Below are positions 212 to 48,267 of a DNA stretch of 64,000 bases, piece by piece. Source of the stretch: Paenirhodobacter populi (lineage in GTDB: Bacteria > Pseudomonadota > Alphaproteobacteria > Rhodobacterales > Rhodobacteraceae). Positions within the stretch are counted from its first letter, which is position 1, and each line of letters begins with the position of its first letter. The stretch covers positions 1 through 64,000 of the forward strand of contig NZ_SAUZ01000011.1 in assembly GCF_004022215.1 (NCBI RefSeq), given 5' to 3'. Made by a program: the position numbers and the translations under genes. Under the pieces are notes generated by a model that saw nothing but the letters and a program-made list of their open reading frames with translations, ran no database searches and was not told the DNA's origin.

Positions 212-226
212 GGCTTTGTTGCGCTA
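212..226. repeat. Left terminal inverted repeat of the IS5-type element
   Basis: GGCTTTGTTGCGCTA matches the inverted right end (1439-1453) at 13 of 15 positions. Confidence 0.75.
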
Positions 227-314
227 TTCGGGATGAGGTCGGATTTGTCTCTTTCCCTGCTATGGTCAGCGCATGCGGACGGTCTCGGGTGCGCCGAGTG
301 ATGTGAAGCGGTTC

Positions 315-397
315 ATGACTGAGCAGGTGAACGGTTGCCCATCGAGGCGCCATCGGTTCAAGCCCGATGGGCGACGGTTCGAGAGAACCTGCGAAGG
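315..397. repeat. Transposase insert 4, double length, two hairpins
   Basis: Extra sequence between codons for EVQIRI and NRFTSLG. It holds GGTTCGAGAGAACC (376-389), the same hairpin as in insert 2 but inverted, and a second palindrome GCCCATCG/CGATGGGC (337-344 with 365-372), nested with CCATCGG/CCGATGG. Net extra length 74 nt, twice 37, as if two units sit side by side. Confidence 0.65.
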
Positions 398-624
398 ATT
401 CGGATCTGAACCTCTGCATCCTGCCTGTCGAACTCTCTGGCCATGATGCGCTCGCCGAGCAGCTTGACGCATCGCATCTTGGCTTCGACCAGGCTTCGTC
501 GGTGGTATCCGGACCATTTCTTCCAGTTGGCCCGGCCAAAGCGCTTGCAGGCACGTAGCGCTTCATTGCGTGATCGCAGTCCCGGATCGTGTCCCTTCCA
601 GACCTTGGCATTTCGTCGCGGCGG

Positions 625-665
625 TAGTGAGGGTCCGCCCGCCATTGGTCCGAGGGCGGGCCCGA
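625..665. repeat. Transposase insert 3 with GCCCGCC hairpin
   Basis: Extra sequence between codons for GADAV and PPRRNAK. Arms GCCCGCC (637-643) and GGCGGGC (655-661) enclose an 11-nt loop. Net extra length 37 nt. Confidence 0.65.
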
Positions 666-938
666 ACGGCATCGGCGCCTCGGGCCGCGATGGCGGCGTG
701 GCAGCCCTTGGTGTCGTAGAACCCATCGGCGGTGACACTGCCGATCCGCTCTTCAGCCGGGATCTGCGCCAGCAAGTCGGGCAGAACGGGCGCATCGCCG
801 ATGCGGTTACCGGTCATCTCCACCGCCCGCACTTCCAGTGTATCAGCATCGATCCCGATATGGATCTTGCGCCACTGCTGGCGGCGACTGGCCCCGTGCT
901 TGTGGACTTGCCATTCGCCTTTGCCCGAGAACTTGATG

Positions 939-986
939 CCCCCTCGCCGGTTCTCTCGAACCGGTGGCGTTCACCGGCTCGATGTC
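939..986. repeat. Transposase insert 2 with GGTTCTCTCGAACC hairpin
   Basis: Extra sequence directly after the codon of the first catalytic Asp (HLLVD). The hairpin at 947-964 has 7-bp arms CCGGTTC and GAACCGG with a 4-nt loop. Net extra length 37 nt, so it shifts the frame. Confidence 0.7.
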
Positions 987-1065
987 CACCAGCAGGTGCA
1001 GTGGAGCGGATGCAGGCCGATACGGGATCTGCACCTTCAGGTGCTTCTGCCTGCGACAGAGTGTT

Positions 1066-1120
1066 GTGTACTGAGAAGGATCAGCGATCCTTCCAGTGGA
1101 AGGATCGCCCGACGAAGGGC
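1066..1120. repeat. Transposase insert 1 with 25-nt palindrome
   Basis: Extra sequence between codons for DWPVP and LCRRQ. It contains a perfect palindrome at 1084-1108: arms GCGATCCTTCCA and TGGAAGGATCGC around one G. The same design occurs in intergenic elements at 5899-5923, 23051-23075 and 48206-48228. Net extra length about 43 nt. Confidence 0.7.
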
Positions 1121-1438
1121 ACCGGCCAGTCCAGACCCGACAGGGCCAGCAAGCTTTCCACGAACCCGGTCGTCTGCCGGAGCGGCAGGCCGAACAAGAC
1201 CTTCATTGAGAGGCAGAACTGAATGGCAGCCGCCGAGAACCGCTCAGGATGACCCGGCTTGCCGCTCGGTGTCGCTAACCAGGACATCCCTGGATCCAGC
1301 CAGACCATCAGCGAGCCCCGGCGCTTCAGGGCTGCATTGTAACTCGACCAGTTCGTGGTCCGGAAAACAGCGACAGGCTTGCTCATGGCGCCAACCTAAC
1401 CCGCTGACTCACAAACATGAATCCGTAATCCGACGGGG

Positions 1439-1453
1439 TAGTGAAACAAAGCC
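1439..1453. repeat. Right terminal inverted repeat of the IS5-type element
   Basis: Reverse complement reads GGCTTTGTTTCACTA, the partner of 212-226. Confidence 0.75.
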
Positions 1454-5858: not shown

Positions 5859-5959
5859 GGGGGCCAGCCCCCTCGCCCGTGTCCCGCGCATTCGGCGGGC
5901 CGATCTTCCACTGGAAGATCGGCTTGACCGCCTCATCCCGGGATATTTATGGAAAAACG
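5859..5959 (+). repeat. Dispersed intergenic element, copy 1 (long form)
   Basis: Begins with GGGGGC/GCCCCC hairpin (5859-5874), then a 25-nt palindrome at 5899-5923 (arms GCCGATCTTCCA and TGGAAGATCGGC), then the core CCCGGGATATTTATGGAA. Same orientation as hrpB, 16 nt after its stop. Nearly the same layout as copy 4. Confidence 0.85.
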
Positions 5960-23010: not shown

Positions 23011-23116
23011 CCTTCGTGTTTCCATAAATATCCCGGGATGAGGCGGACAAGTCGATCTTCCGGCGGAAGATCGACCCGCCGAATGCGCAGGACACGCGCG
23101 AGGGGGCTGGCCCCCT
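23011..23116 (-). repeat. Dispersed intergenic element, copy 4 (long form)
   Basis: Minus-strand copy: GGGGGC hairpin, a 25-nt palindrome at 23051-23075 (arms GTCGATCTTCCG and CGGAAGATCGAC), core CCCGGGATATTTATGG. Closely parallels copy 1, but stem bases differ in compensating pairs. Confidence 0.87.
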
Positions 23117-48145: not shown

Positions 48146-48267
48146 GGGGGCCAGCCCCCTCGCGCGTTCCGCTCCGGCGCGGCCACGGGCCGCGCGTTCG
48201 CCAGGGCGTCCTTCCACTGGAAGGCCGCCTCTTCCTGGCTCACCCCCCGGGATATTTATGGAAACAC
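48146..48267 (+). repeat. Dispersed intergenic element, copy 9 (long form)
   Basis: GGGGGCCAGCCCCC hairpin 54 nt after the tpiA stop, a further inverted repeat, an imperfect 23-nt palindrome at 48206-48228 (GCGTCCTTCCA / TGGAAGGCCGC), core CCCCCCGGGATATTTATGG. Confidence 0.84.

Follow-up and report, generated by a model that had tools for sequence, protein, structure and literature searches.

Palindromic units interrupting an IS5-family transposase gene of Paenirhodobacter populi: probable small mobile repeats

An insertion sequence with four palindromic inserts

The window examined here is the whole analysed stretch of Paenirhodobacter populi DNA, 64,000 nucleotides of contig NZ_SAUZ01000011.1, and its start coincides with the edge of this contig (C2) in a 4.78-Mb genome (G000). 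Close to that edge lies an insertion sequence (IS) of the IS5 family whose transposase gene is interrupted by four additional segments, designated I1 to I4 and referred to below as units. The features are as follows.

212-1453, minus strand: IS5-family element of the ISPam1 group, from alignment to ISPam1 and other copies
266-1386, minus strand: transposase frame, broken solely by the four units
319-396, plus strand: I1, net 74 nt, an outer family-C unit whose loop contains a second, nested unit
334-375, plus strand: inner, nested family-C unit of I1, from comparison with the outer unit of contig C48
627-667, plus strand: I2, family C, arms GGGTCCGC / GCGGGCCC, net 37 nt
942-982, minus strand: I3, family C, arms GCCGGT / ACCGGC, net 37 nt
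1071-1117, plus strand: I4, family A/D, GAGAAGGATCAG-hairpin GCGATCCTTCCAGTGGAAGGATCGC-CCGACGA, net 43 nt
5899-5923, strand not given: dispersed A/D-type hairpin with flanks common to other copies
48205-48229, strand not given: dispersed A/D-type hairpin with flanks common to other copies

The Pfam domain DDE_Tnp_1_5 is matched at 1081-1386 (88 bits), and a plasmid search identified ISPam1 of Paracoccus aminophilus as the closest relative of the element (match of 1053 bp). The ISPam1 coding sequence spans 930 nt, or 310 codons including the stop. When the window element was aligned with ISPam1, a P. versutus copy, and five further copies from the host genome, net extra lengths of 74, 37, 37, and 43 nt relative to ISPam1 were found at I1, I2, I3, and I4, respectively; the whole units measure 78, 41, 41, and 47 nt at positions where relatives show 4 nt. 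The extra segments, absent from ISPam1, sum to 191 nt, and their subtraction from the 1242-nt element leaves 1051 nt. In the ISPam1 reading frame, 309 of 309 window codons were comparable, with zero stops, and no gap beyond the four inserts was seen in the alignment with ISPam1. The first-pass annotation had proposed, from a remembered family sequence, inserts of 43, 37, 37, and 74 nt, a restored gene of 310 codons in an element of about 1051 bp, and the lack of any other stop or frameshift; the ISPam1 alignment bears out all three. All four units lie out of frame, and the window copy, judged from its sequence, probably makes no transposase.

The largest insert proved to be composite. The outer arms of I1 (GCAGGT at 323-328 and ACCTGC at 387-392) enclose an inner unit with arms CCCATCG and CGATGGG, in which 42 nt replace 5 nt of the outer unit for a net gain of 37 nt. 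At this site, a related IS copy on contig C48 has just the outer unit; the 74 nt of I1 can thus be read as 37 + 37 net, and the earlier remark that 74 equals twice 37 turns out to be literally true, one net-37 unit sitting inside another. I2 is missing from ISPam1, the P. versutus copy, and host copy C79, and I3 is present in C79 in identical form. At the I4 site, copies C46 and C21 hold an identical unit and C37 one that is 93.6% identical.

Whole units were folded as DNA on both strands and compared with shuffled sequences. The resulting z values (plus / minus strand) were -5.2 / -3.4 for I1, -1.95 / -0.9 for I2, -3.2 / -3.1 for I3, and -4.8 / -5.3 for I4. The notion that every insert can form a hairpin is therefore upheld for I1, I3, and I4 and applies weakly, in terms of energy, to I2, given its z values.

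It had also been suggested that three junctions lie at or near catalytic segments. This holds for I3, which sits directly 3' of what we take, by IS5 motifs, to be the first catalytic Asp codon (VD|STG); at I1, I2, and I4, no such motif was seen by eye. An A-type unit of C46 lies directly after the glutamate of what is presumably the Y-2-R-3-E-6-K signature, and C37 and C7 likewise carry a unit at that glutamate site.

Families, ends, and distribution of the units

I1, I2, and I3 belong to one family, here termed C, in which a core, CTCGAACCRRTGGCG or close variants, is held between two arms that pair within a unit yet differ from one unit to the next. This covariation was quantified in 38 distinct family-C sequences of fixed geometry, with the 3' arms shuffled 1000 times. 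Across the six outer arm pairs, 211 of 228 cells were paired, against a shuffled mean of 146.7 and a maximum of 166 (the shuffles do not preserve relatedness among the sequences). The core also bears an apparent likeness to a tRNA T-arm (GGTTCGAGCCC).

I4, which consists of GAGAAGGATCAG, a hairpin, and CCGACGA, represents a second family, A/D. Similar to it are the TATGAGGAGGATCAG-AAAACAGTCC..GGACTGTTTT-CCCGACGAATG units of C46, C21, and C37, as well as the dispersed repeats at window positions 5899 and 48205. The full A/D pattern gave 17 genome matches and zero control matches. Hairpins of the CTTCC..GGAAG type occur in the window at 5899-5923, 23051-23075, and 48205-48229, and the first and last of these share flanks (e.g., ATATTTATGG) with dispersed repeats. 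A third unit type, TGAGA..GGGACCGTGGCTGC..GCAGCC..CCCATCGAATGAA, was encountered in sister-IS copies (C37, C7, C19, and C40:16700) and has similar TGAG/CGAA ends.

No known RNA family emerged for the 16 loci submitted to Rfam, where nine matches with E values up to 1 were returned and none attained the gathering score. Scores were 21.2-26.7 bits for BASRCI153 (137 needed) and 27 bits for mir-134 (68 needed). The weak likeness to BASRCI153, a Brucella sRNA (21-27 bits), concerned A/D units at seven loci (L036, L037, L011, L033, L001, L002, and L004).

A genome search for other copies of the inserts, as the first-pass annotation had advised, uncovered dispersed families. With the reversed pattern as control, the exact core of I1-I3 was matched 37 times in the host genome against a control of zero; with one mismatch allowed, the counts were 62 and 21. 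Over 149 genomes of the bacterial family, exact core matches numbered 409 and control matches 58. At least one core match was found in 102 of these genomes, although low or single counts per genome say little, because the control pattern itself matches in 47 of the 149. The host genome ranks first with its 37 matches, followed by genomes with 23, 21, 16, and 15, and more examples of the I3 unit and the inner I1 unit occur in genomes of the same genus. A longer pattern retrieved 60 stretches from named genomes: 53 with names that we take to be Rhodobacteraceae-type, three from Azospirillum, and four from metagenome-assembled genomes of wider name. Unit-bearing genera include Paracoccus, Leisingera, Rhodovulum, Palleronia, and Falsigemmobacter.

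Faulty assembly, or fortuitous hairpins in a pseudogene undergoing random decay, would fit the position of the window at a contig edge and the fact that several IS matches stop at contig edges. We regard the likelihood of this explanation as negligible; it is refuted by the control counts, by the covariation between arms, and by the recurrence of like units in named plasmid records and many independent genomes.

Many, but not all, of the units reside in or beside IS genes, as judged from domain sampling of the host genome and the named loci. In the host genome, 19 of the 37 exact core matches fall inside copies of this IS5 group (by comparison of listings). Among the other 18, Pfam transposase domains were identified at C1:361754 (DUF772), C3:111408 (rve_3), and two matches on C41 (rve), with HTH_Tnp_1 below cut-off at C6:141141, an IS5 fragment near C7:78084, and a DJ-1 domain alongside the match at C3:95824; the remaining tested pieces showed no Pfam transposase domain. 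When pieces around unclear host-genome sites were searched against Pfam, eight of one set of ten and five of another ten lacked a family. For the named loci, every third of the 60 was taken (20 in total), and for each the piece with the strongest coding character within 600 bp was examined; this need not be the gene that the unit interrupts. A transposase-type domain exceeded the cut-off in ten (Mutator, rve, DUF772, IS66, HTH_Tnp_1, or IS110) and fell below it in two (L112 and L136); three had no domain and five another domain (L115, L139, L154, L163, and L166). At L139 and L163, the unit adjoins host genes.

On the GA strand, family-C units read N-Y-GA-G...C-GA-R-N', and in most of them N-Y is complementary to R-N'. 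Ends and targets were tallied over 80 distinct sites from the host genome, the named stretches, and some relatives, a sample that is partly pattern-selected and includes related copies. Here, the flank dinucleotides pair in 75 of 80 sites with T-G wobbles counted, a purine occupies -1 in 78, and G occupies +1 in 70. In a 46-site count without wobbles, the first, second, and third pairs were complementary in 43, 34, and 2 sites, respectively. The inner unit of I1 follows neither the GAG/CGA end rule nor the complementarity of the dinucleotides. By eye, I4 and the dispersed A/D units fit the rule for ends, and the A-type units of C46, C21, and C37, which end in AT/TT or AT/CT, do not fit the complementary-dinucleotide rule. 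CGTC precedes some units (I1 inner and I6), and family-C sites mostly read NNTC.

Comparison with empty copies suggests how the units sit in their targets. Four nucleotides appear to be replaced at the window sites and at a site in an IS3 transposase, an estimate drawn from diverged relatives (approximately 75% identity for ISPam1 and 86% for the IS3 flanks), and 5 nt seem to be replaced at C21 and C40. Other filled/empty pairs gave a net gain of 36 nt and, by hand, of 41 and 43 nt; the 4-5-nt replacement rule is thus not strict, given the last two values. No target-site duplication was seen by eye in the filled/empty pairs. A derivation of the flank dinucleotides from the target was considered and dropped because empty relatives lack them. 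The GCCGGT unit occupies two sites of this IS5 gene family, both of which read GACAGCMCCG when empty. Units occur in both orientations relative to the gene, and a fixed gene orientation, and hence a role in the mRNA, was dropped for this reason.

Shared sites, open copies, and the spread of the units

Several units recur at the same site in different IS copies. Between the window and C79, I1 (74/74) and I3 (41/41) are identical, and these units lie within the two longest identical runs of the pair (107 nt for I1 and 69 nt for I3); a further identical stretch of 47 nt contains no insert. I1 is 98.7% identical in C37, a sister-IS copy. At the IS3 transposase site, which bears an SDNG motif that we take to be catalytic, the unit is identical at 39-42 of 42 positions in five loci with flanks of 47-84% identity, the latter lowered by rearranged upstream flanks in two loci. 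The I3 of C46 has a left side like that of an empty copy and is thus recombinant, which demonstrates that IS copies do recombine. Partial matches to the window element at contig edges (C22, 99% over 156 bp; C54, 97% over 127 bp; C67, 97% over 122 bp; and C50, 96% over 617 bp) point to movement of the IS once it carried its units, or to its conversion, and close copies elsewhere likewise suggest that the window copy was moved in trans or converted. On C54 and C67, the match breaks off at the contig edge, within the I1 hairpin or where it begins, a pattern that palindromes or repeats halting the assembly would produce. IS5 transposases of Sagittula, Loktanella, and Leisingera (L181, L182, and L184) carry yet another palindrome family (CCCCTCTC..stem..CACTGCCGGGCAGTG), which stands directly before what is presumably the first catalytic Asp codon, the window I3 standing directly after it; the Loktanella example is in frame.

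The divergence of the gene copies bears on the age of the units. Values of dS / dN were 0.68 / 0.07 between the window and C79, 0.34 / 0.07 with C46, and 0.24 / 0.115 with the copy at C21:39648. The low dN/dS, together with identical units, indicates that the units are young relative to most of the divergence between gene copies. The sequences imply that each copy gained several units before the window copy had gathered neutral lesions.

This clean backbone also invites another explanation, already raised in the first-pass annotation, namely that ribosomes pass over the hairpins or RNA processing takes them out, so that transposase is still made. Translational skipping has precedents in T4 gene 60 and in the byps of mitochondria. 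Favourable to such skipping are the stop-free 309 codons, a dN/dS of approximately 0.1-0.2 against C79, C46, and C50, which are themselves unit-bearing (0.47 against C21:39648), and the existence of partial copies with units at several places. However, selection before recent insertion can also account for the dN/dS, open copies without these units exist, the orientation of units relative to the gene varies, and C37 and C7, both heavily loaded, have acquired additional small frameshifting indels. The idea thus found no positive support, and we consider it very unlikely.

In the host genome, a sister IS is present as two open copies, C21:3695-4651 and C40:903-1859. Outside the units, their identity is 97.1% at the protein level and 97.5% at the DNA level, and each carries one 12-codon, in-frame family-C insert at a different site; ISPam1 (61.8% identical to C21) and ISPko1 (56.7%) lack both inserts. 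Palindromic inserts of other families also stand in frame in two annotated transposases, one of IS5 type in Loktanella and one of IS110 type in P. aminovorans. Moreover, L166 of Aliiruegeria lutimaris has an in-frame unit (approximately 2405-2495) between two molybdopterin-binding (MoCoBD) domains of one open frame.

Several of these observations could be accommodated without independent mobility. The units may have entered a few IS lineages long ago and since been distributed by IS transposition, horizontal transfer, and gene conversion; consistent with this, several unit sequences are tied to one site, units of the window copy recur in C50, C33, C46, and C79, the I3 of C46 is recombinant, and units lie at the centre of the two longest stretches of identity between the window and C79. 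Same-site sharing could likewise stem purely from gene conversion among IS copies, in view of the insert-free 47-nt run and the recombinant I3. Nevertheless, the same core is found within or next to genes for several kinds of transposase, adjoins host genes, and in one case lies within a host gene; C21 and C40 each hold a different unit despite 97% identity; and the GCCGGT unit occupies two sites of the gene family with the same empty sequence. An old entry of this kind is accordingly judged improbable.

The explanation that we consider likely is that the inserts are small mobile palindromic units (41-47 nt), similar to repetitive extragenic palindromes (REPs) or Rickettsia palindromic elements (RPEs), which invaded IS transposase genes of Rhodobacteraceae-type bacteria and later spread by short-tract recombination or homing. 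The suggestion of a mobile palindromic unit as in RPEs, made when the inserts were noticed, gains support from the dispersed families, the nesting, the presence and absence of units at the same site, and the in-frame examples. A unit would be handled as a folded single strand, presumably the GA strand, on which tandem G-A mismatches and T-G wobbles would suit the stem; fold energies speak for this strand in I1 and I2 and slightly against it in I4, and are balanced between the strands in I3. It would be inserted by some host or IS activity and subsequently reach the same site of other IS copies through short-tract recombination or homing. Rapid accumulation of units in a gene that purifying selection had maintained until a short time ago would explain the clean backbone.

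A stronger version, in which homing hairpins move as the folded GA strand into fixed sites of diverged transposase genes and pile up faster than point lesions, acting as parasites of, or a brake on, IS across Rhodobacteraceae, is regarded as doubtful. Its fixed sites would include what we take to be the first catalytic Asp and the catalytic Glu.

Comparison with known palindromic repeats

Like RPEs, the units are palindromic repeats of an alphaproteobacterium that form several families and lie inside coding genes. RPEs often stand there in frame; the units are in frame in some open genes and out of frame at all four window sites. RPEs are described as about 150 bp long, located in metabolic genes of Rickettsia, and encoding a conserved peptide (PMC10969869), with RPE-4 and RPE-6 corresponding to short CGTC repeats (PMC3733652). 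On these descriptions, the units, at 41-47 nt, are unlike the long RPEs and within the range of the short ones. Compared by description, they also differ in breaking the frame in the window, in residing in many cases in transposase genes, and in their GAG/CGA ends and complementary flank dinucleotides. They are palindromic repeats inside protein-coding genes, as RPEs are; we would nonetheless set them beside RPEs rather than file them among these.

The CGTC REPs are short palindromes common in alphaproteobacteria, some of them inside open reading frames, with no dedicated transposase known (Di Nocera 2013; PMC3733652). The units share their short palindromic form and occasional placement within genes, and subsets of CGTC REPs have alternative complementary stems. 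As described there, however, CGTC REPs have 8-9 bp stems that almost always start with AT and loops of 4-5 nt, whereas arms such as GCCATTG, GCCGGT, GGGCCC, and GACATGG surround a conserved 15-nt core in family C, and CGTC solely precedes some units. On this stem and loop rule, membership in the group was rejected.

GTAG REPs, which are mobilised by a Y1 tyrosine transposase (RAYT), resemble the units as small dispersed palindromes, and some unit-bearing genomes do have a Y1_Tnp (PF01797) match, e.g., G007 with 15 core matches and one Y1 match. However, the unit ends lack a GTAG tag, and PF01797 has no match in the host genome, with its 37 core matches, or in G046 of the same genus, with 23; matches occur in 15 of the 149 family genomes. 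Both membership among GTAG REPs and RAYT-driven movement are therefore disfavoured, the latter being considered very unlikely.

The byps of yeast mitochondria are hairpin inserts at many positions of coding genes that spread in a mobile-like manner and are skipped by the ribosome. The units resemble them as hairpin inserts in coding genes, and skipping is a feature of byps. Miniature inverted-repeat transposable elements (MITEs) are defined by terminal inverted repeats with target-site duplication and by mobilisation through an IS of the cell; at the units, 4-5 nt of target appear replaced, with no duplication seen by eye.

A search of titles and the beginnings of abstracts in open-licence papers, with subscription journals outside its scope, returned no description of such units in Rhodobacteraceae. 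The units would add widespread, apparently young mobile palindromes to the group formed by RPEs and CGTC REPs, and they illustrate one way in which an IS transposase can be disrupted or acquire extra peptides. Because they have definable ends, a target preference, and filled/empty pairs, their mode of movement would be open to test.
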